Of a stretch of DNA of 24,014 nucleotides, positions 145 to 12,156 are shown piece by piece. The stretch lies in the IMG/VR virus record IMGVR_UViG_3300030339_000238, positions 1 through 24,014 of that record. One strand, given 5' to 3'. The notes under the pieces are model-generated. The model had not been told where the DNA came from and did no database searches. It saw only the letters and a program-made list of their open reading frames with translations. How positions within the stretch are numbered: the stretch's first letter is position 1; the number at the start of each line of letters is the position of its first letter. The translations under genes were made by a program, and so were the position numbers. The stretch comes from a virus.

Positions 145-453
145 TTATAAGGTGCGATAGTTGTATTGTTTGTTATAATTCCAATATACAATATGATATT
201 TTTGATTTCCTGTAGGCTCACGTTTGATTACAACTTTACCTTTAAAATTATCATTTTTTGCTTGATCTAGAAGTTGTTGACGTAATGTATCTTCATCAAA
301 TTTTACAAATGCGTCTATATTTTGTTTAGCTTTTTCAAGTTTTTGATTAATTTGTATCAAAATTTCTTCTTTTGCTTTTGAATTATCTTCTTGACCAAAC
401 CACTCATTAACTGTGTCATTATTATGCTGTTCAAACTTTTTTAAGTGTTTCAT
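145..453 (-). CDS. cassette A small protein, MKHLKKFE N-terminus
   Basis: This 102-residue protein has no fold I recognise. It begins MKHLKKFEQH, the N-terminal signature shared by the neighbouring cassette A genes and resembling the T4 capsid-targeting peptide. The middle (about 25-65) is charged and probably helical, and the C-terminus is aromatic (YWNYNKQYNYRTL) without the KYNL ending of its relatives. It is the last gene of the minus-strand run, 54 bases after the previous gene, and is followed by the terminator at 99-124. The start is the ATG at 453. Function is unknown; packaging in the head is only an inference from the N-terminus. Confidence 0.7.
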   Translation of the reverse strand: MKHLKKFEQHNNDTVNEWFGQEDNSKAKEEILIQINQKLEKAKQNIDAFVKFDEDTLRQQLLDQAKNDNFKGKVVIKREPTGNQKYHIVYWNYNKQYNYRTL

Positions 454-507
454 ATTGTTTTAAAATTATTTTTTATTATTATATATATTAATATTTTTAT
501 TCAATTT

Positions 508-957
508 TTATAAATTATATTTTCTTGCTACAACTCTTATATCATCTGGATTAAATATTTCTAAAACATCAAGAAATAGATTGCCATCTTGAACTAATAT
601 CCTAAGTGTTGGATTTTTTAAAAGTTTTTCTGTTTGTTTATCCTTATCCAAAACTCTTAAAAAATGACTAATAAATTGTTCAATATTATAGTAATGATCA
701 ATATTAAGTATATTTAACAATTCTTTATTTTTAGCAAAATCAAAAAATTTAATATCAAATGTTCTTTCACTTTTTGCACAATATTTTAAATCACATATTG
801 TAAATTTGTATTCCTCTATAATATAATAAAAATTATCTTCATATTTTGAATTATCATGTTTTATTGGTGTGCCATCATAATGTGATTCAGCATGTTTAAT
901 ATTATAGCGTGAATACTCATGTGATGTTTTATTAAATTTTTCAAATGTTTTAATCAT
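508..957 (-). CDS. cassette A small protein ending in KYNL
   Basis: This 149-residue protein is not recognised. It starts MIKTFEKFNK, sharing a 19-base stretch with the start of the upstream gene (MKTFEKFIE), and ends ARKYNL. The body is soluble-looking, rich in Tyr, Asp and Lys, with no membrane segment. Its ATG overlaps the TGA of the upstream gene by four bases (ATGA), which suggests translational coupling. The shared start joined to an unrelated body fits a modular, recombining cassette. Confidence 0.75.
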   Translation of the reverse strand: MIKTFEKFNKTSHEYSRYNIKHAESHYDGTPIKHDNSKYEDNFYYIIEEYKFTICDLKYCAKSERTFDIKFFDFAKNKELLNILNIDHYYNIEQFISHFLRVLDKDKQTEKLLKNPTLRILVQDGNLFLDVLEIFNPDDIRVVARKYNL

Positions 958-1277
958 AAATTATATTTATTTGATGATATTAATTCGTTTTTTAATTCTT
1001 CAAGATTATTTGATTGATATAAAACCGAATTCATGTTCATATTTGTAAAAAAATTTTCACCATTTGCATAATAATCTTCGAGTGTATTTGTTTCAGAATT
1101 ATATTTATAAATTGTTTCAGACCAATATCTTATATCTGGTTCATATGTTATTTCTGTCATTTCTAATATTTCATATGTGTTAAAATCTTTGTATTCATCG
1201 GAATTATCAAACCATAAAATATATCTTTTATTAATTAATATTTTTTCTTTTTCAATAAATTTTTCAAATGTTTTCAT
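954..1277 (-). CDS. cassette A small protein with close capsid-targeting-like N-terminus
   Basis: This 107-residue protein begins MKTFEKFIEKEK, the closest match in the window to the T4 capsid-targeting peptide MKTYQEFIAE (same K2, T3, aromatic 4, F7, I8). It ends SSNKYNL. The body is acidic and aromatic (IRYWSETIYKYNSETNTLEDYYANG) and unrecognised. It overlaps the upstream stop by one base (TAATG) and the downstream start by four. Cleavage near FIE or EKE by a prohead protease would be the prediction if the homology is real. Confidence 0.75.
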   Translation of the reverse strand: MKTFEKFIEKEKILINKRYILWFDNSDEYKDFNTYEILEMTEITYEPDIRYWSETIYKYNSETNTLEDYYANGENFFTNMNMNSVLYQSNNLEELKNELISSNKYNL

Positions 1278-1858
1278 TATTCAATTATTTTTAATTTAGC
1301 ACCAGATCGTATAATATCTTTGATACTATCGGTATTTAAATTTTCTTTAAATTTATCAGTCTTTTTATCTTTATCTTTTAATAACCAATTATTTCCAGAA
1401 TTTGATGTTTCATATACATAAGTGATATTATTATCAGTTAATTCAATTGTTTTTGCGGTTAATTTTTTGTAAAAATCTTCAACTTTACCTTTAATTGTAT
1501 AAATTTCAATAGGAGACCATTTATCATCTTTATAATATTGCAAAATTAAAAAATCAGGATTATCTAATATTGATTCATTCCTACTATAAAGAAAGAAAAA
1601 TTTCATATCTATATCTTTTTTCAAAAAATTTTCAATGTCAGTTGTAGATTCCATTTCGCCTTTTTTTAAATGGTCTTTAAATAATTGTTTATTAAAATTA
1701 GCATCATCATATAGATACTCAATAGTTTTATTTAAGTAATCACTATTAGATAGATGAATTATAAAAAAGTCACCTTTTTTATCATTGATACTATCTAATA
1801 GTCCATCGACGTCTGTTGTGATAGACTCTTTAATATATTCTAAATATTTTTTTATCAT
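1277..1858 (-). CDS. cassette A protein of unknown function, 193 aa
   Basis: It starts MIKKYLEYIKESI, with an I-K-E|S site at residues 9-12 that matches the [LI]-x-E cleavage rule of T4 prohead protease. The upstream neighbour also carries YIKESI, with similar codons. The body looks like a compact alpha/beta domain (FFIIHLSNSDYLNKTIEYL; MKFFFLYSRNESIL) but I cannot name it. Unlike most neighbours it ends KLKIIE rather than KYNL. Its start overlaps the upstream stop as ATGA. Confidence 0.75.
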   Translation of the reverse strand: MIKKYLEYIKESITTDVDGLLDSINDKKGDFFIIHLSNSDYLNKTIEYLYDDANFNKQLFKDHLKKGEMESTTDIENFLKKDIDMKFFFLYSRNESILDNPDFLILQYYKDDKWSPIEIYTIKGKVEDFYKKLTAKTIELTDNNITYVYETSNSGNNWLLKDKDKKTDKFKENLNTDSIKDIIRSGAKLKIIE

Positions 1859-2154
1859 AAATTGTATTTTTTTGTTATGATTTCTTCCGGTGCTGCTAAT
1901 CTAAATCTATTTGGTTCCCAATATCGTCTAACATTAACTAATTTTAATTGCTCAATTGGTTCACAATCATCAAATTTTTTTATATTTTCTATTTGATAAA
2001 TATTATTCATTTTTAAATATTTACTATAATTATAATCGGATATTGTTGAAGAATTATCAATACATATAACTATATCTCCAATTTGAAAATTTTTAGTATT
2101 TTCAAATTTGATAGATTCTTTAATGTATTGTGTATAAAGTTTTAAATGTTTCAT
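1855..2154 (-). CDS. cassette A protein, SH3-like small domain
   Basis: This 99-residue protein starts MKHLKLYTQYIKES, with an I-K-E|S potential prohead-protease site ending at residue 13, and ends KKYNL. Residues about 24-85 (FQIGDIVICIDNSS...NNIYQIENI...EPNRFRLA) follow the pattern GDxVxCIDNS-...-YxV-...-RF of small beta-barrel, SH3-like phage proteins. The next gene downstream has the same pattern, so the two are probably paralogues. Function is unknown. The ATG lies within a junction element. Confidence 0.75.
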   Translation of the reverse strand: MKHLKLYTQYIKESIKFENTKNFQIGDIVICIDNSSTISDYNYSKYLKMNNIYQIENIKKFDDCEPIEQLKLVNVRRYWEPNRFRLAAPEEIITKKYNL

Positions 2155-2167
2155 AAATTATATTTAT

Positions 2168-2182
2168 TTAGGTCTGTTTCAT
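2168..2182 (-). other. four-codon micro-ORF between duplicated junction elements
   Basis: Two junction elements lie 28 bases apart here (2151-2165 and 2179-2193). The ATG of the first to be transcribed opens a four-codon frame, MKQT-stop. It looks like the residue of a deleted cassette gene whose start and KYNL end have been brought together. Confidence 0.45.
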
Positions 2183-2445
2183 AAATTATATTTTTGAATA
2201 TTGTTTCTAATTTCTGATATAAATCTATCACAAGAAAATGTTCCAAAAGTTTCTCCAATTTTTCCTAATTTACTATTTACTTTGCAAACATAATAACCAT
2301 TTTTATTTTTGAATATTTTTTTCACTAAGTATCTCATATCTTTAGTTAAGCATGAGTCTTCATTATCTATACAAATAACATCATCACCTTCTTTGAATTT
2401 TGGTGTATCTTTTTCTGAACTTTCGTATTTTTTCAAGTATTTCAT
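2179..2445 (-). CDS. cassette A protein, SH3-like small domain, paralogue of neighbour
   Basis: This 88-residue protein starts MKYLKKYESS and ends IQKYNL. Residues about 17-75 (FKEGDDVICIDNEDSCLTKDMRYLVKKI...CDRF) repeat the GD-x-VICIDN...YxV...RF layout of the protein encoded at 1855-2154, so a local duplication followed by divergence is likely. No catalytic motif is seen. Its ATG overlaps the upstream TAA by one base. Confidence 0.75.
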   Translation of the reverse strand: MKYLKKYESSEKDTPKFKEGDDVICIDNEDSCLTKDMRYLVKKIFKNKNGYYVCKVNSKLGKIGETFGTFSCDRFISEIRNNIQKYNL

Positions 2446-2867
2446 TAATCCCGATTATAATTTTTTAATTTTTTAACTCTATCTTTAAATTTGACACCAC
2501 CTAAGACAGAAGTTGGTATTGTATTATGATATTGTAAAATTGACGATGTTATTATATTCACACTGGCTCCATATGTTTGTATCTCTGGATTAACCCATTC
2601 ATCATCTTGTAATACCCATACATTCTCTCTTGGATAGCAAGATATTATAAACGGATTTTCAGTAACTACTGATTTAACATAATGTCTATAATCAACAGTA
2701 TCAGCAAATGTCATTGCTCTTTCAGGATAAAGTATTAAATTATCATTTTTACTTTCACGAACTAAATCATAGTAATGCTCCATATTAGCATCATTTCCTT
2801 GAAGAAAAACAAAACATTGTTCTTTTTCCATTATATTTTCTGATTCAAATTTTTTTAAATATTTCAT
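2445..2867 (-). CDS. cassette A protein, possible ATPase-tail remnant
   Basis: This 140-residue protein starts MKYLKKFESENIMEKE; I-M-E at 12-14 could be a processing site, and M13 is a possible alternative start. The centre (ENPFIISCYPRENVWVL... and EIQTYGASVNIITSSIL) faintly recalls the last strand and the TYG-x-S-V-N-x-I segment of ABC/OLD-type phage and defence ATPases. There is no Walker A, so at most it is a C-terminal fragment. It ends KNYNRD, a variant of the KYNL tail. The ATPase link is a weak resemblance only. Confidence 0.7.
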   Translation of the reverse strand: MKYLKKFESENIMEKEQCFVFLQGNDANMEHYYDLVRESKNDNLILYPERAMTFADTVDYRHYVKSVVTENPFIISCYPRENVWVLQDDEWVNPEIQTYGASVNIITSSILQYHNTIPTSVLGGVKFKDRVKKLKNYNRD

Positions 2868-2913
2868 AAATTATATTTTTTTGATAATTTTTTTTTAAAG
2901 TTTCATGTTTCAT
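2845..2913 (-). pseudogene. remnant micro-ORF between two cassette A genes
   Basis: The stretch between junction elements at 2910-2924 and 2864-2878 opens with ATG and reads MKHETLKKNYQKN, then runs out of the KYNL frame into the next gene. Adding one A in either of two A-runs (9 and 7 long on the minus strand) would give a 16-residue peptide ending KKYNL. It is therefore probably a shrunken, frameshifted cassette member. Confidence 0.4.
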
Positions 2914-3257
2914 AAGTTATATTTAATTTTATTCTTTTTTAATTCAAATTCTTCAATTTCTTTTGGTGTTAATTTTCTTTCAATTGAATCAAATTTGTCT
3001 CTTGTGCCTAAAATAAAAAATTTTGCATCTTTATCATCTTCTAAAGGATTATGTACAATAATTTCAAATGTACATTCACGTCCAATATGATCTTCACTAT
3101 TTATATCAATAATTTTAGCATATTTAAATATGTATAATCTATTATTAAATTTATACATATCTAATCTTGAATTTTTAAATAATATATAATCACCTTCTTT
3201 ATAAGCATCGCGCCACTTTTCTTGATCGTATGCTTCAAATAATTTGATATGTTTCAT
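2910..3257 (-). CDS. cassette A protein, SH3-like, MKHIKLFE N-terminus
   Basis: This 115-residue protein starts MKHIKLFEAYDQEK and ends KIKYNL. An N-terminal beta segment (WRDAYKEGDYILFKNS) is followed by FEIIVHNP and a charged C-terminal helix (KLTPKEIEEFELKKNK), a layout I associate with hypothetical phage SH3-like proteins whose tail reads like R-x-A-T-P-E-E-I. The start and the 14 bases upstream are part of a 38-base sequence identical to that at the start of the gene at 3924. No enzymatic motif is seen. Confidence 0.75.
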   Translation of the reverse strand: MKHIKLFEAYDQEKWRDAYKEGDYILFKNSRLDMYKFNNRLYIFKYAKIIDINSEDHIGRECTFEIIVHNPLEDDKDAKFFILGTRDKFDSIERKLTPKEIEEFELKKNKIKYNL

Positions 3258-3271
3258 TACTTATATATTAA
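3234..3271 (-). repeat. 38-base exact repeat, copy 1 (5' leader plus first eight codons)
   Basis: This stretch is identical to 3901-3938. It covers 14 bases upstream of the ATG and the codons for MKHIKLFE. Identity that extends into non-coding leader points to recent duplication or recombination at gene starts, not to protein-level selection alone. The leader (TATATAAGTA before ATG) may be part of a start signal. Confidence 0.85.
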
Positions 3272-3411
3272 ATATTATATTTATGTACAGATAGTAGAAA
3301 TTCTGAATCTTTCATAAATTTACTAATAAAATCATCTTCTTTCATTATTACATTCCAACCAGAATGAAATTGAGTAAATATATAATCATCACTTTCTTTG
3401 TACCGTATTAT
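3268..3411 (-). pseudogene. 3' continuation of the preceding gene after an in-frame TGA
   Basis: After the TGA at 3412-3414 the same frame stays open for 47 codons: IIRYKESDDYIF at the start and LLSVHKYNI before the TAA at 3268-3270. It has no start of its own near the 5' end. The KYNI ending matches the KYNL tail of sibling genes, which shows that this segment was, or is, the true C-terminus of the gene at 3924. A TGG to TGA change would explain it; stop-codon readthrough is the alternative. Confidence 0.7.
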
Positions 3412-3924
3412 TCAACTGTCACCTTTTGCACTTGTTTTAATTTCTCCTTTTTTATTAACAATTAAAGTGTTTTCTTCAATAATTGTTTCTTTATCCATCA
3501 TTCTTACAATTTGTTTATCGTCAATTGGATTAAACATTTTATCCCAAATTGTATTTGTATTTTTTGTTATATCTAATTTTGGATTACCATCAATAGCAAC
3601 ATTAATAACGTTACTACTACCATATTTTTTATTAACTTTATTAGTTAATGATCTCATGTATAATGTATCACACAGTCCATCATCTTTAGCGTTTCTTATA
3701 AATTTTTCTAATTGTAAGTCACCAACAATAATATAGCCGAAGTTATCAACAGGATTTTCTGCAATAGAAACATATTTACCTGGTCCTATATTATTATTAT
3801 AAAATATAGATTTATTTGAATAACCTTTTTCTTTATTATAAATTTTTGCAAAATTAATTATACCATCATTTATAATTTTAGGAACTTCAGTAATATATTT
3901 TTCAAATAATTTGATATGTTTCAT
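3412..3924 (-). CDS. cassette A protein interrupted by an in-frame TGA
   Basis: As annotated to the first stop it has 170 residues. It begins MKHIKLFEKYITEV, with I-T-E|V (11-13) as a possible prohead-protease site. The body (IINFAKIYNKEKGYSNKSIFY; GPGKYVSIAENPVDNFGYIIVGDLQLEKFIRNAKDDG; YGSSNVINVAIDGNPKLDI) looks like a folded alpha/beta domain but is not recognised. It stops at KTSAKGDS-TGA, then the frame continues for 47 codons to a KYNI end, giving 217 sense codons in all. It is the first gene of the minus-strand run and lies divergent to the glycosyltransferase gene. Confidence 0.7.
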   Translation of the reverse strand: MKHIKLFEKYITEVPKIINDGIINFAKIYNKEKGYSNKSIFYNNNIGPGKYVSIAENPVDNFGYIIVGDLQLEKFIRNAKDDGLCDTLYMRSLTNKVNKKYGSSNVINVAIDGNPKLDITKNTNTIWDKMFNPIDDKQIVRMMDKETIIEENTLIVNKKGEIKTSAKGDS

Positions 3925-6669: not shown

Positions 6670-7647
6670 TTATTTCTTATTAAGTTCCACAATATTTTTA
6701 AATTCTTGTAAAATTCTTGTCTTATTTTCAGATGGTGATTGATTTATATAATCAATTACCATTTCATTTAATGATAATGAAGATTCATTTAATTCTAAAA
6801 TATCTTCTTTATCTTTCAAAATTTCATTATCAATATAGTTCACATTAACAATATCATGCTCAGATATTAACATTTCTATTTTCAATTTATTATCAATTAA
6901 TAATTGCTTATTTATATTTAAACTGACATAATTGTTGATAAATGTTTCAGTTGGAATGTTTAGATCAGATTCTATTTCTATATTTATTTTTTTGAAATTT
7001 GGACTTAATTTATTTTGAATAAATTTATCTTTATCAGCATAAACATCTAACACAATAAATCCTTTTTTACTATCACTATCAATATTATATGGTGACGCTA
7101 AATTTTTTATATTTGCAGTTACACTATTTTTTTCATAAAATCCATTATAACATTTTTTATATGATTTAAGTTTATTTACAATAATGTCTCTTTTCGGTGT
7201 ATTCATATAATCAAAATTAAAAAAACAATAATTAGAATCAAATTTATCAAGATCCTCTATTTGTGTATTTCTTGGAAGTGCAACAAAACTTTCAGTTAAA
7301 AGTATTTCTATTTTTTTAGGCTCTTTAATAATTTCAATATTGCTTATATTTTTAAGAATATTTAATGATAGTGTATCATTTTCTCCTTCTATAATATATA
7401 CTGGAAGTATTTTTGATATTTTTTCGAATATGTCTTGAATGAATTTTAAGACTGTTAAATCAATTGTTTTTGTTTTGCATAGTAGATTACCTAAATGAAT
7501 TAATATATCATTGGGCTCAGCATTATTAGTCAAATAAGGCATGAATTCATTGTAGAAATAGTAGTCCATATTTTTTAACCATTCTCTAGAAGAAAGGTTT
7601 TTTGATAGGTTGAAATTTGTGTTACTTATTATGAATATTTTTGACAC
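6670..7647 (-). CDS. Mre11/SbcD (gp47)-like metallophosphoesterase with degenerate active site
   Basis: This 325-residue protein follows the order of phage Mre11/SbcD nucleases: IFIISNTNF (4-12), EFMPYL...DILIHLGNLL (34-56), ILPVYIIEGEND (80-91), FFNFDY (142-147), YNGFYEKN...ASPYNIDSDSKKGFIVLD (167-201). The usual ligands are replaced: D-x-H by N9-x-N11, G-D by G-N54, G-N-H-D by G-E-N-D91, and the later H and GHxH by N144 and NGFY. Only D91 remains. It thus looks like a catalytically dead relative, perhaps structural or regulatory, with an intact reading frame. The start is GTG at 7647, with no nearby ATG; the frame is also open upstream into the tnpB tail. Confidence 0.7.
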   Translation of the reverse strand: MSKIFIISNTNFNLSKNLSSREWLKNMDYYFYNEFMPYLTNNAEPNDILIHLGNLLCKTKTIDLTVLKFIQDIFEKISKILPVYIIEGENDTLSLNILKNISNIEIIKEPKKIEILLTESFVALPRNTQIEDLDKFDSNYCFFNFDYMNTPKRDIIVNKLKSYKKCYNGFYEKNSVTANIKNLASPYNIDSDSKKGFIVLDVYADKDKFIQNKLSPNFKKINIEIESDLNIPTETFINNYVSLNINKQLLIDNKLKIEMLISEHDIVNVNYIDNEILKDKEDILELNESSLSLNEMVIDYINQSPSENKTRILQEFKNIVELNKK

Positions 7648-7666: not shown

Positions 7667-7684
7667 TCAAAGATTAATCTTTGA
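7667..7684 (-). mobile_element. palindrome at the tnpB 3' end, candidate element end or guide-RNA hairpin
   Basis: TCAAAGATTAATCTTTGA is an 18-base perfect palindrome covering the last codons and stop of tnpB, 20 bases before the GTG start of the next gene. Hairpins near the right end are usual for IS200/IS605 elements, and the omega RNA ends there. The exact element borders could not be fixed because there is no target duplication to see. Confidence 0.45.
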
Positions 7685-8881
7685 TGGCCAAATCGCTTGA
7701 CCTCTACACCTTTTAGTTTGGATAATTTCTTTTCCCTTATCTGGTGCTACTTTCCTTAATATATTTAAAGCTCCATTCAAATCAGCATTAATCTTTATCC
7801 CTTTTGAACTCACAAATAAACCTCTTTTAACTCTTTTACCAACGTAATTTTCATGTTTACTTAATGACTCCAAATCCAATGCTGAACATTTACTAGTATA
7901 ACTTTCTTCGTTCTGAATAAAATTTATACCATCTAACTTGCATTTATACTCTAACATATTTAATAATGATCCGTGTGGTATATTTACAAAGTTTTGGTTA
8001 TGTCTTTTACCAATATTTATTTCTTGTTTCCATTCTTTATTATATCCAACAACCAAATTAGATATTTGATTATTCACGCAATAATTGACTATAAACCTGG
8101 AACTTTTGTGGAGATAGTCTGTAATTTTATTATTTCGTTTTAATGTTAGATTATTTAACCTATTTGAACTATATTTATTATGATTTTTTATTAATTTTGA
8201 TTGTATTTTAGTTTTCTTTTTATTATAATATTGATTTATTGATTTTACTGGTTTACCATTTATAATTAATGATTTGTTATTTTTTGTATCGTAACAAGTC
8301 ATTAAATTATTTAGACCAAGGTCTATAGATAAATAATTATCATTAATTATTTTTTCTTTTTCTTGCTTTTCATAAACTATTTCAATTACATAACAAGATG
8401 ATTGAGGAATAATTCGCACTTGTTTTAATGATTCTACATTTGTTTTTATAGGTTCGATTAATGATTTTTTAGGAAAATGTATATATTCATTTTTTAATTT
8501 AGCTTGACTAATAGTAAATATTACAGGAAATCTACCTGTAATTTTATCTTTATAATGCGGAAATTGAGGACAACCGTTTAATGATTTTTTATCTTTTTTC
8601 CATTTAGATAACAACTTGAAATATGATATTAAAGATTTATCTATTAACATAAGAGTTTGTTGTGACGATGATATTGGCAAATTTCTATAATCAGGTTGGT
8701 CATTTAATTTAAATTCTCTTTCTAAATCATTATATCTAATAAATTTACCAGTTTCTTCTTTATGCTTTCTTATATAATATAACGCAGAATTATAAAGATT
8801 TTTAGATAAAAAACAAATATTATCTAATGATTTCCATCTTTTATCTGATTTTTTAATAATATGTCGTTCTACTATTTTCAT
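7667..8881 (-). CDS. tnpB: TnpB-type RNA-guided nuclease / IS200-IS605 family OrfB
   Basis: This 404-residue protein has the TnpB layout: an N-terminal wedge/recognition part (KNLYNSALYYIRKH, GCPQFPHYK) and RuvC motifs I SIDLGLNNL (D187), II FIQNEESYTSKCSALD (E325/E326) and III NADLNGALNIL (D367). All three acidic positions are present, so cleavage activity is plausible. The zinc ribbon normally between motifs II and III (two CxxC pairs) is absent; only C332 remains, within SKHENYVGKRVKRGLF. That feature is shared, to my knowledge, by a subgroup of these proteins. No tnpA is present. Any guide RNA should overlap the 3' end and run toward 7640. The start is ATG at 8881. Confidence 0.88.
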   Translation of the reverse strand: MKIVERHIIKKSDKRWKSLDNICFLSKNLYNSALYYIRKHKEETGKFIRYNDLEREFKLNDQPDYRNLPISSSQQTLMLIDKSLISYFKLLSKWKKDKKSLNGCPQFPHYKDKITGRFPVIFTISQAKLKNEYIHFPKKSLIEPIKTNVESLKQVRIIPQSSCYVIEIVYEKQEKEKIINDNYLSIDLGLNNLMTCYDTKNNKSLIINGKPVKSINQYYNKKKTKIQSKLIKNHNKYSSNRLNNLTLKRNNKITDYLHKSSRFIVNYCVNNQISNLVVGYNKEWKQEINIGKRHNQNFVNIPHGSLLNMLEYKCKLDGINFIQNEESYTSKCSALDLESLSKHENYVGKRVKRGLFVSSKGIKINADLNGALNILRKVAPDKGKEIIQTKRCRGQAIWPSKINL

Positions 8882-8925: not shown

Positions 8926-9174
8926 TTATATTTGACATATTTTGTTTAATTTTTTTAATCTAATTTCTTTTTCGTTGTAGAATATTTCAAAAAAATCTAT
9001 ATAGTTAAAAGTGTGAAATTTATTACTATGATTACCATTGTTAGAAAAAGCTGTAATATTATAAGGTATAATATTTTTATGATAGGTATAATGTGTTTTA
9101 TATATTTCATTTGTGATAAACATATCTGAAAAATTGTTTTTACATATATAGTTTTTTACTTCTATTTTTGACAT
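8926..9174 (-). CDS. cassette B small protein
   Basis: This 82-residue protein starts MSKIEVKNYIC and ends IRLKKLNKICQI, the cassette B tail. The body is aromatic (Tyr, Phe, His, Asn) with no recognisable motif. It is the last intact cassette B gene before the TnpB insertion. Its end overlaps a new ATG that opens only MSNIT-stop (8921-8938), possibly the broken start of a gene once present downstream. Its start overlaps the upstream gene by 13 bases. Confidence 0.65.
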   Translation of the reverse strand: MSKIEVKNYICKNNFSDMFITNEIYKTHYTYHKNIIPYNITAFSNNGNHSNKFHTFNYIDFFEIFYNEKEIRLKKLNKICQI

Positions 9175-9515
9175 ATTATATTTAGTTTTTTTAATTTTTG
9201 TTTTCTTTGTAGTAATATTTTAGCATTATCAGTAAAATCATTAAGAATAATAATAATTTCATTAATATCATTAATTTCATTATTATAGAAGGTTTTTGTT
9301 ATTGGAGTTGGATTATAATGGGCACTACTTATATTATTTTCTAATATTCTGAAGATATCTATTTTAAAGTATTTTCGAATTTTTTTAAAATAACCAAAAT
9401 TGTTGTTTTCAATTTTGATTATTGGATAACCATTTATTTTAGAATAATGTATATCAGTTATTTCTATTCCCAATTTTAATAAAAAATCTGTAGATTCTGT
9501 TATGAATTCTGACAT
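9162..9515 (-). CDS. cassette B small protein
   Basis: This 117-residue protein starts MSEFITEST and ends RKQKLKKLNIICQK. The middle has beta-like stretches (INGYPIIKIENNNFGYF; IDIFRILENN) and an acidic, isoleucine-rich segment (NEINDINEIIIILNDF). It is unrecognised. Its start overlaps the upstream stop region by 16 bases, with ATA-TGT-CAG (ICQ) of one frame giving ATG-TCA (MS) in the other, as at the other cassette B junctions. Confidence 0.65.
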   Translation of the reverse strand: MSEFITESTDFLLKLGIEITDIHYSKINGYPIIKIENNNFGYFKKIRKYFKIDIFRILENNISSAHYNPTPITKTFYNNEINDINEIIIILNDFTDNAKILLQRKQKLKKLNIICQK

Positions 9516-9922
9516 ATTTTGTTTAATCTTTTTAATTTTTCTTTTCTTAATTCTTTTAATTTGAATAATGAAAAATCACCATTTATATAATCTGCAGAAA
9601 ATGTTACATTTATTTTATATTGATTAAAGGTATAGTCTATAGGAAATATTCCTCCAATAAAAATTCCATTATAATTTATATCTTGTTTATAATTTCTAAT
9701 AGAGGAATAATATGAAGATTCAATCCAATTATTTAATGCTATATAATTGTTATTTGAAGTTTCTGCTGATATTTTTATACATTTCTGTGGTGATGGCATA
9801 ACATAATTATTATGATTTCCAAACATTGTAATTGTATTAATTTCAATATCAATATCCTTTATATCAAATACTATATTATTAATTTTTATACTTAAATTTA
9901 GATTTTTAATATTTTCTAACAT
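9500..9922 (-). CDS. cassette B protein, possibly tail-tube-like beta fold
   Basis: This 140-residue protein ends LKELRKEKLKRLNKICQNS, the fullest form of the cassette B tail. Residues about 85-118 (YNGIFIGGIFPIDYTFNQY, KINVTFSADYINGDF) recall the strand pair of small phage tube-like proteins, where G-x-F/Y-P-x-x is followed by x-V-T-F-S-x-D-Y. The N-terminal half is beta-rich with a MFGNHNNYVMPSPQ segment. If correct it is a structural protein, which fits its position near the baseplate block. The evidence is pattern-level only. Confidence 0.65.
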   Translation of the reverse strand: MLENIKNLNLSIKINNIVFDIKDIDIEINTITMFGNHNNYVMPSPQKCIKISAETSNNNYIALNNWIESSYYSSIRNYKQDINYNGIFIGGIFPIDYTFNQYKINVTFSADYINGDFSLFKLKELRKEKLKRLNKICQNS

Positions 9923-10350
9923 ATAGTTTTAATTTCTAACAATTTTTTATAATAATTTTCACTTAAAAATTCTTTACCTTCTAAAATATGATTTTTATAT
10001 TCTTCTGTAGCTTCTAATTCATTAACTGTTGTCCATTCATCATTTGCAACATAAACTACACATTCTTTATTGTTAATACGATGACTTTCACGACGATAAT
10101 GCTTAGGCGCACCCTCATATTTATCCAATTTTAATATATCATCTTGATTAAGCTCATAAATAATTCCTTCAACGTGAGAAGAATTATCTTTAATAATGTT
10201 AGCAAATCCTATATTTGGATTTTTTTGAGATTTTTTATTGATAATAAATCTATAACCTTTGAGTGATCCTTTTTCTTTTGATGTGAAATTTACACCACGT
10301 TCGATCATTCTTGATGAATCTAGGTTACTCCCATACGCGAAATAATTCAT
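9916..10350 (-). CDS. gamma-glutamylcyclotransferase-like (AIG2/GGCT fold) protein
   Basis: This 144-residue protein has the full family layout: YFAYGSNL (3-10) binding loop, GFANI (48-52), V-E-G-I-I-Y-E-L (60-67), and LDKYEGAPKHYRR (75-87), where E79 is the expected catalytic glutamate. Members remove the gamma-glutamyl group from glutamyl-amines as 5-oxoproline. Phage homologues are common but mostly of unknown substrate. It sits inside cassette B and overlaps both neighbours (4 and 7 bases). Its end, KKLLEIKTIC, is a shortened form of the cassette tail. Confidence 0.85.
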   Translation of the reverse strand: MNYFAYGSNLDSSRMIERGVNFTSKEKGSLKGYRFIINKKSQKNPNIGFANIIKDNSSHVEGIIYELNQDDILKLDKYEGAPKHYRRESHRINNKECVVYVANDEWTTVNELEATEEYKNHILEGKEFLSENYYKKLLEIKTIC

Positions 10351-10613
10351 AACTTTTCTAGTTTTTTTAGTTTTTCTTTCCTTAATTCTTTTAAATATTT
10401 TATTCCTGCCTCTAATTCAACCCATCTGGCATGATTTTCTTCTATTTGATAAATATAAAATATTGATTTGTATTCATTTGATTTAATATGTTCAATTGTT
10501 GGATTATCAAAATCATAAACAGCTAAAAAATTAGAGTTAATCATTCCTTCATTTGGAATACTTACTATTTTTACGTTTTTAAAATTACTTACTTTATTAA
10601 TTAAATTTGACAT
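10347..10613 (-). CDS. cassette B small protein
   Basis: I place the start at the ATG at 10613, giving 88 residues (MSNLINKV). The frame is open back to 10679, but the extra 22 residues are low-complexity and the MS- start matches its neighbours. The body (VKIVSIPNEGMINSNFLAVYDF, EYKSIFYIYQIEENHARWVELEAG) is probably a small alpha/beta domain and is not recognised. It ends YLKELRKEKLKKLEKL, a clear cassette B tail, and overlaps the next start as ATGA. Confidence 0.65.
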   Translation of the reverse strand: MSNLINKVSNFKNVKIVSIPNEGMINSNFLAVYDFDNPTIEHIKSNEYKSIFYIYQIEENHARWVELEAGIKYLKELRKEKLKKLEKL

Positions 10614-10715
10614 TATCAATAAATATTTTTTATTTTTATATAAACTTTTATAATAAATGTTTAAATAAAATAACAGCAAATTGGTGATTATATGGTAGAT
10701 AAATTTTGAAATATT

Positions 10716-10997
10716 TTAAAAATTTTCCGCCTCTTTTTTTGCTGCATCTTCTCTTGCCTCTATTGCCTTTCTATGAGCGAGCGCATCTCTTTTTAATTGT
10801 TTTGCAGTCTGTATAATTATTTCCAAATCTTGTCTTAATCTAATAGATGCGACTTTATAATTTTTTTTATATAGTTTATAATAATTTAATCTACAATTGT
10901 TCAATCTATCAATTATGTCTTCAATTGGGTTTATTTCATCATTATAATCATCTTCATTGGTGGATGAAATTTTTCCACTTCTTTTAGTTTGTTCCAT
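10716..10997 (-). CDS. small coiled-coil protein, possibly histone H1-like
   Basis: This 93-residue protein has an acidic N-terminus (12-27), then two long helices: IEDIIDRLNNCRLNYYKLYKKNYKVASIRLRQDLEIII and AKQLKRDALAHRKAIEAREDAAKKEA. The turn YKLYKKNYKVASIRLRQDL aligns by eye with the F-x-K-F-Y-x-K-x-N-K-A-A-G-T-R-x-R-K-x-L of Bacteroidota Hc1/H1-like proteins, which bind DNA. Several phages carry such genes. The classic Lys/Ala-rich tail is missing, so a plain coiled-coil structural protein is also possible. It overlaps the upstream gene end by 14 bases and lacks the cassette B tail. Confidence 0.6.
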   Translation of the reverse strand: MEQTKRSGKISSTNEDDYNDEINPIEDIIDRLNNCRLNYYKLYKKNYKVASIRLRQDLEIIIQTAKQLKRDALAHRKAIEAREDAAKKEAENF

Positions 10998-11172
10998 ATA
11001 AATGTTCTAATTTTTTCTTTCTTAATTTTCTTAATTTTTTTATTTTATCTTGTAAACTATTTTGAATAACAATGTTTAAGTTTATAGATTGTACAGTATT
11101 TTTTGGTTGTATATAAATATCAACATTTATAATTTTATATTTATAATAGATAAAAATTATAAAATTTTTCAA
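10984..11172 (-). CDS. cassette B very small protein with non-ATG start
   Basis: This 62-residue frame starts at a TTG (11172), six bases after the heptose-kinase stop; no ATG exists in the frame. It begins with a hydrophobic stretch (NFIIFIYYKYKIINVDIYI) and ends DKIKKLRKLRKKKLEHLYGTN, matching the lysine-rich cassette B tail. The last 14 bases overlap the start of the next gene. The tail match is the main reason to call it real. Confidence 0.45.
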   Translation of the reverse strand: MKNFIIFIYYKYKIINVDIYIQPKNTVQSINLNIVIQNSLQDKIKKLRKLRKKKLEHLYGTN

Positions 11173-11178
11173 AAAATT

Positions 11179-12156
11179 TTAGATAATATTTAAAATATCA
11201 ATCTCTTTCATCAATTTATCTTTATTAATTGTCCCAACTCCGATTTCTTCACAAACCATTCCACCAGCAATATTTGCAATTTTTGCAATTTTTTCTATGT
11301 CTAACTCATCAAGTAAAAATGGAATTATGCTTAAAACCACATCTCCTGCGCCAGACACATCTACAACATTTATGATAGATGCTGGTATTATTTTGTTTAT
11401 TATATTATCATCTTTTTTATAGGATACAAAAATTCCATCTTCTGAGAGAGTTACAAATATAATTTCAATACCTTTTTTATGTAATATTTCTGCTCCATTT
11501 TTAAGTAATTCATCACGATTAGATGAATTAATATTTATACTTTCTTTAAATTCTTTGAAATTTGGTTTGAATAGTGTTATATTTTTATAAAAATTAAAAT
11601 TATTTTTCTTAGGATCTGCTATTATTGGAATATTTAAAGATTGCGCTAAATTTGTAATATAGTTTATAATATATTCGTTTAATATTCCCTTATCATAATC
11701 TTGAAATAGAATACAATTAATTTTAAATTCATTTTGTCGTTCAAACACACTATTTATTATTTTTAATAAATAATTTTGATCTTCCTCAACTATTTCTGTT
11801 TTTATTTCTTCGTCTATCCTTACCATTTGATGATTATTTCCAATTATTCTGGTTTTATTTGTTGTGATTCTATTACTTGATTGATGTATTTGATGTGTTG
11901 AAATTTTTATTTTATTTAATAATGATAAAAAAATTTCACCATTTTGATCGTTACCTATAATAGAACATAATATTGGATTTCCACCCAAATTTATTATGTT
12001 TGCTGCTACATTAGCTGCACCACCTAATTTATATTGTTTTGATGTGACATCTATAATTGGAACCGGAGCTTCAGGCGAAATTCTTTCAACGGTACCGAAT
12101 AGATAAGAATCTAACATAACATCACCTATAATTAAAATATTTTTATGTTTGAACAA
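11179..12156 (-). CDS. hldA: D-glycero-beta-D-manno-heptose-7-phosphate kinase-like (HldE/RfaE kinase domain)
   Basis: This 325-residue PfkB/ribokinase-family protein has the family N-terminus IIGDVMLDSYLFGTVERISPEAPVP (9-33), LGGAANVAANIINLGG (44-59), and the anion hole with catalytic Asp DVSGAGD (266-272, D272). The R-I-S-P-E-A-P-V-P block is specific to heptose-phosphate kinases. These make heptose-1,7-bisphosphate, a step toward ADP-heptose for LPS core or other glycans. There is no nucleotidyltransferase domain, so it would depend on the host or another phage gene. The start is TTG at 12156. The in-frame upstream codons LKKLSEL would extend it toward the E. coli N-terminus from an ATT at 12177, so the start is uncertain. 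A phage role in surface-sugar change is inference. Confidence 0.88.
   Translation of the reverse strand: MFKHKNILIIGDVMLDSYLFGTVERISPEAPVPIIDVTSKQYKLGGAANVAANIINLGGNPILCSIIGNDQNGEIFLSLLNKIKISTHQIHQSSNRITTNKTRIIGNNHQMVRIDEEIKTEIVEEDQNYLLKIINSVFERQNEFKINCILFQDYDKGILNEYIINYITNLAQSLNIPIIADPKKNNFNFYKNITLFKPNFKEFKESININSSNRDELLKNGAEILHKKGIEIIFVTLSEDGIFVSYKKDDNIINKIIPASIINVVDVSGAGDVVLSIIPFLLDELDIEKIAKIANIAGGMVCEEIGVGTINKDKLMKEIDILNII

Follow-up and report, generated by a model that had tools for sequence, protein, structure and literature searches.

Purifying selection on a phage gp47 of the Mre11/SbcD family whose two-metal nuclease site is gone

The closest described relatives of the gene studied here are the T4-type gp47, SbcD, and Mre11 proteins, and the contact of Mre11 with Rad50 is made by a C-terminal helix-loop-helix (PMC3175470). 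In the yeast MRX complex, as PMC4762649 presents it, tethering is promoted by the ATP-bound state, in which the nuclease is hidden, and the complex is opened by hydrolysis. Proteins in which Mre11 and Rad50 are fused are already known; PMC3175470 describes them in cellular organisms as occurring mostly alongside normal separate genes and in Mimivirus and a Bacillus phage as the only form. Inactive phosphoesterases acting as scaffolds in polymerases are known as well. According to PMC4996933, these B-subunits of eukaryotic polymerases are calcineurin-like phosphoesterases without catalytic motifs that belong to another family of the superfamily, carry an OB domain, lost their catalytic motifs long ago, and have a known role. 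A search of one literature library turned up neither a dead gp47 nor the combination of one with a fused enzyme.

The window analyzed here, a 24,014-nucleotide stretch of viral DNA, encodes a protein that is like the T4-type gp47/SbcD/Mre11 proteins in its full-length homology, its Mre11 fold, its capping domain, and its C-terminal helices. It differs from them in that the metal ligands and the catalytic histidine are lost and the active-site loops are shortened. In lacking catalytic motifs, it resembles the polymerase B-subunits.

A gp47 homolog without its metal site

The gene lies on the minus strand at positions 6670 to 7647, with a GTG start at 7647, a stop codon at 6672 to 6670, and no internal stop, and it encodes 325 amino acids, the full-length frame that the sequence-only reading had described. 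Searches of the window protein against Pfam and PHROGs gave no match at E ≤ 1, and a profile of dead sequences only found no Mre11 among PDB sequences at E ≤ 10, so relatives and fold were needed to identify the family. With tblastn, the window protein matched gp47 of huge phages, with LR756502 at 28.6% identity over 86% of its length (E = 1e-20), followed by LR745206, LR756500, and the Lak phages and, weakly, by T4-like gp47s. In the reverse direction, the intact gp47 of LR756502 recovered the window clade with E values of 1e-24 to 1e-29.

Alignment against intact relatives located each of the former motifs. The D-x-H motif is now N9-T10-N11 (7615 to 7623), G-D is G53-N54 (7486 to 7491), and G-N-H-D is G88-E89-N90-D91 (7375 to 7386), which retains the final aspartate and is followed by a deletion of about eight residues. 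The later metal-binding histidine is N144 (7216 to 7218), part of the loop past it is also deleted, and S-G-H-x-H has become N168-G-F-Y-E172 (7132 to 7146), all on the minus strand. The aspartate of "YDNR," present in 72 of 72 intact sequences, is gone as well.

We then compared 90 aligned rows, made up of the window with 17 close loci, another 66 IMG/VR loci, and 6 reference phages. The residues of the two-metal nuclease (DxH, GD, GNHD, H, and GHxH) failed in all 18 rows of the clade, that is, the window and its 17 relatives, and were kept at all nine scored positions in the other 72, with no intermediates. (L005, the Lak-A1 locus, looks intact and stands outside this table.) The ligand losses that had been noted from the window alone thus extend across the motifs of the clade, with the qualification that the dead rows read N-x-N except in L014, which retains the H of D-x-H, and L085, which has Q there. 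The rows further read GN, GEND, and N, and the last two histidines are replaced by F/Y and D/E/S. GEND was read from a separate alignment with intact relatives, the H and D of GNHD being gaps for dead rows in the 90-row table. Ligands resupplied at shifted positions, which had been named as a possible objection, were ruled out because the dead proteins contain only one to four histidines (8 to 13 in intact ones), of which just H51 is invariant, and H51 is common in intact relatives.

The gene is nonetheless maintained without catalysis, as had been proposed. None of the 18 clade rows has an internal stop, the substituted residues are themselves conserved, and even L085, at 54% identity, still has the gene. 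Of the 55 pairs of dead sequences, 52 had a dN/dS of 0.063 to 0.184, and the remaining three were saturated; dS exceeded 1 in many pairs, so these ratios are rough. The phosphoesterase and cap halves behaved alike in the five pairs tested. The distinct set used here omits L008, L009, L016, L019, L020, and L084, identical or near-identical copies that are all within the 90-row table, and the truncated L012 was excluded from A2, dN/dS, and the trees. The loss of the metal site and the purifying selection on dead gp47 are therefore both observed, and it is very unlikely, judging from these sequences, that the standalone gp47 of this whole lineage is a nuclease.

The predicted structure also places the protein in the Mre11 family rather than in a nonmetallophosphoesterase fold. 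AlphaFold2 models were built from 28 sequences (pLDDT 84.5) and from the 11 dead sequences alone (pLDDT 75.3), and the top Foldseek match of both was Mre11 (3qg5_C, E = 1.0e-11 and 2.2e-11). Against Staphylococcus aureus SbcD, VIA-align gave Z 22.8 and rmsd 3.1 over 261 aligned residues for the model with intact relatives and Z 18.7 and rmsd 3.5 over 256 for the dead-only model. The modeled Mre11 fold with cap and C-terminal helices thus emerges even from dead sequences alone. The C-terminal helices (residues 287 to 325; 6673 to 6789, minus strand) are conserved, are visible in the models, and were aligned to Thermotoga maritima Mre11 by way of a mixed profile of clade and intact sequences. 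Dead gp47 accordingly appears to retain the capping domain and helices that correspond to the helix-loop-helix with which Mre11 binds Rad50, and binding would be predicted. Taken together, the window gene is an ortholog of phage gp47, the Mre11/SbcD subunit, whose two-metal nuclease site is lost, and the gp47/SbcD ancestry first read from the sequence holds.

Several features of the surrounding DNA were recorded separately. An IS605-type OrfB/TnpB gene (7667 to 8881, minus strand) ends 19 bases ahead of the GTG start of gp47; among the loci compared, full-length identical copies are confined to L008, L009, and records that cover this stretch, and L010 to L015 have gp47 with an ATG start and no OrfB/TnpB gene. 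Consecutive small frames with LxKLNxIC-like tails occupy 8926 to 11172 (minus strand), and just before gp47 in L010 to L012, the tail DNA (AAATTAAACGAAATATGTC) overlaps the start codon, which suggests that the tail may serve as a common translation-start leader. Between the baseplate genes and gp47 lie a PfkB-family sugar kinase (11179 to 12156) and a γ-glutamyl cyclotransferase-like protein (9916 to 10350), both on the minus strand, whose families (F3 and F2) are each found in nine clade loci. Small proteins otherwise unlike one another share an M-K-x-x-K-x-F-E-like start in the window (145 to 3924, minus strand), L015 (10893 to 15981), and L083 (11301 to 15527). This start resembles T4 capsid-targeting sequences. 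The same proteins often end in K-Y/F-N-L, and the DNA of this common ending may contain a signal that belongs to the next gene.

Distribution of the dead form and its co-occurrence with fused Mre11-Rad50

The DnaB-like helicase of the window is closest to that of phage LR756501 (59.5%), as is a baseplate-region protein (35.9%), and these similarities indicate that the window derives from a relative of this 735-kb phage. Other huge phages are of similar scale (LR756502, 642 kb; LR745206, 634 kb; LR756504, 636 kb), and PMC7162821 assigns the largest genomes of its survey, with a top size of 735 kb, and the Lak phages to the clade Mahaphage.

LR756501 itself carries a 240-aa dead gp47 relic (E = 2.5e-5 with the dead-only profile), which reads, partly by eye, N-I-K, a retained GD, and GND and in which the cap region is kept but the metal site is missing its second half. 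An AAA-ATPase of family F6 is encoded near both this relic and the gp47 gene in six clade loci. A further contig, G030, encodes a 296-aa dead gp47 with relatives that are 67 to 100% identical (L266 to L269), and in the sister group, the position of E89 is S, A, or T. A 42-row gp47 tree unites all 15 of its dead sequences in a single group (support 98/90); support drops to 85/57 without the ligand columns and their neighbors, and the LR756501 branch is long. Outside this group, the gp47 of G045 (596,785 bases) has been crippled separately: it reads GN and GNRD but retains D-x-H as well as the later H and GHxH, and it nests among intact sequences (100/97).

Relatives do have a second, putative nuclease, but it is a fused Mre11-Rad50 from a different lineage; a second T4-type gp47 was not found in the same records. 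Two contigs of the window clade, G003 and G004, whose gp47 is 72% identical to that of the window, encode identical 1,250-aa fused proteins that combine an ABC ATPase and a CPSC hook with a phosphoesterase half bearing the motifs D-V-H, GD, GNHD, H, and GDIH; Pfam PF00149 and PF13476 both match within a single 1,257-codon frame. The G003 fusion matches PHROG 35725 and PHROG 77 and not the gp47 family, PHROG 100. LR756501 has a homolog of 1,202 aa. Dead gp47 and fusion therefore share a contig in G003 and G004 and a genome in the complete LR756501. In a 9-row tree (SH-aLRT 100), the 1,312-aa fusion of G045 falls together with the fusions of Tenacibaculum phages pT24 and PTm1 and outside the G003/LR756501 group. 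Since both gp47 and fusion of G045 are separate from those of the window lineage, two gp47 losses accompany two differently derived fusions. These probable replacement enzymes are of the kind described for Mimivirus R555 (PMC3175470), a gene different from that of the window and one that here co-occurs with dead gp47. They depart from the canonical motif, with GDIH in place of GHxH and DxQ in G045, so their nuclease activity is putative.

We searched for the fusion in nine large records with intact gp47 (436 to 642 kb; W01 to W05, G024, and G046 to G048). It was not detected in W01, G024, or G046 to G048 with the fused protein as query, the lone G046 match being its own gp47 frame. For W02 to W05, its absence is taken from the lack of long-frame phosphoesterase or AAA_23 matches, with frames less certain in W04, which reads through TAG. 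Ten dead-gp47 fragments of 25 to 147 kb (G001, G002, G005, G006, G008, and G014 to G018) have no fusion and, being fragments, are uninformative either way; conversely, five contigs (G009 to G013) have the fusion and no gp47 on the fragment. Phosphoesterase frames of 236 to 237 aa lie near gp47 in G001, G002, and G008 and, on reading the G002 sequence, appear to be of a different type. In a 484-kb phage, neighboring separate frames related to the fusion, a 239-aa phosphoesterase and an 863-aa SbcC-type protein (L153; LR756508.1, 122583 to 126724), possibly represent the unfused state of the fusion lineage; the profile of dead gp47 sequences found nothing in LR756508.1.

The presumed gp46 partner and a possible division of labor

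The window record, a 24-kb fragment, has neither gp46 nor fusion, and these genes are seen in relatives only. A search for gp46, which had been suggested as a check, found a T4-type gp46 in the complete relative LR756501. This 566-aa protein has Walker A, hook, signature, and Walker B motifs, and the sequence "IIATP" replaces the H-loop histidine found in others. This histidine is generally needed for ATP hydrolysis by ABC ATPases. It is missing in 17 of the 80 gp46 rows that cover the H-loop, all of them from the LR756501 group, and in a tree of 31 of the 84 rows, the 13 histidine-less rows included all fall in one 16-row group with LR756501. L181, L183, and L190 also belong to this group, and L181 and L183 have the histidine. 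Of 77 gp46 loci, 22 were searched for gp47 and fusion. Among the samples with window-clade dead gp47, 4 of 16 contain a histidine-less gp46 and 2 more a partial gp46. No window-clade contig was found to carry both gp46 and dead gp47, and a search for contig-end overlaps gave no link; the gp46 subgroup is thus provisionally assigned to the window's clade from separate contigs, by tree position and shared samples. In ten gp46 frames (L190, L196, L225, L227, L229, L233, L249, L250, L252, and L256), Walker A is interrupted by a sequence ending in HNSS, presumably an intein in the P-loop.

Our preferred explanation, which we hold to be somewhat better than even, is that the fusion took over cutting and that dead gp47 stays as the noncutting structural partner of gp46 at DNA ends. 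The fused Mre11-Rad50 would have taken over DNA-end cutting, dead gp47 would have remained as the structural partner of the gp46 ATPase, and the two together would bind or bridge DNA ends without cutting them, perhaps as an end tether. Because most gp46 proteins of this group lack the H-loop histidine, a slow-hydrolyzing, ATP-closed clamp is suggested. The boldest step, made by analogy with the yeast complex, is that losing both the nuclease site and the hydrolysis residue would leave the complex in the tethering state. The resulting split of the Mre11-Rad50 job, with an imported fusion cutting and gp46-gp47 forming a nuclease-free, ATP-locked clamp in the lineage of LR756501 and the window and with a partial parallel, on the gp47 side only, arising separately in G045, is a more tentative proposal that we would not yet expect to hold. 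Against the takeover and clamp stand G030, the contig of L183, in which gp47 is dead, gp46 keeps its histidine, and no fusion is present on the fragment, and G045, whose gp46 likewise has the histidine.

Alternative explanations and biological meaning

Dead gp47 might instead act on the host, capping DNA ends or poisoning host SbcCD in the manner of λ Gam and N15 TelN, an explanation we consider improbable. Host Mre11-Rad50 is inhibited by both phage proteins (PMC12624138), end protection would be a possible shared effect, and the retained, putatively Rad50-binding C-terminal helices make binding to host SbcC conceivable. However, the parallel change in gp46 and the association with a fused nuclease suggest the phage's own complex, and the sequence is conserved over a clade found in numerous samples, although variation would presumably mark a decoy aimed at the host. 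PMC12624138 does not describe Gam or TelN as an SbcD homolog; the fold of the window protein is Mre11's own.

A role as scaffold or regulator of the fused Mre11-Rad50 in a mixed assembly, by analogy with the polymerase B-subunits, seems just as improbable. The two proteins occur together in G003, G004, and LR756501, polymerases do use inactive phosphoesterase domains as scaffolds (PMC4996933), and the Pol δ B-subunit appears in the Foldseek lists of both models, although it is absent among the 50 best VIA-align matches listed. Yet the fusion, as its sequence reads, has a capping and helix-loop-helix region of its own, and the expected partner, gp46, is still present in LR756501.

Less probable again is a rebuilt pocket, in which the conserved Asn/Glu set would bind another ligand or a single metal in a new enzyme or sensor role. 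N9, N54, E89, N90, D91, and N144 are invariant in all 11 distinct dead sequences, but at 6 of 9 site positions vs. 105 of 325 overall, the excess over background is modest, and we give it little weight. E89 also varies in the sister group, LR756501 retains GD while lacking half of the site, and almost no histidines are left. Functionless decay, to which the shortened, long-branched LR756501 copy might point, is highly implausible given the stop-free frames of all 18 clade rows, the dN/dS of 0.06 to 0.18, and the retention of the gene in sequences as distant as L085.

Since the gp47 of this lineage, that of the 735-kb LR756501 included, very probably has no nuclease activity, annotation by the presence of the gene alone would mislead. 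The roles of Mre11-Rad50 that need no cutting are usually examined through engineered mutants; should gp46 remain functional with a dead gp47, the pair would provide a natural test of such roles, among them end tethering and recombinase loading. Should the split of the job prove true, this lineage would hold a natural separation-of-function form of the Mre11-Rad50 complex.
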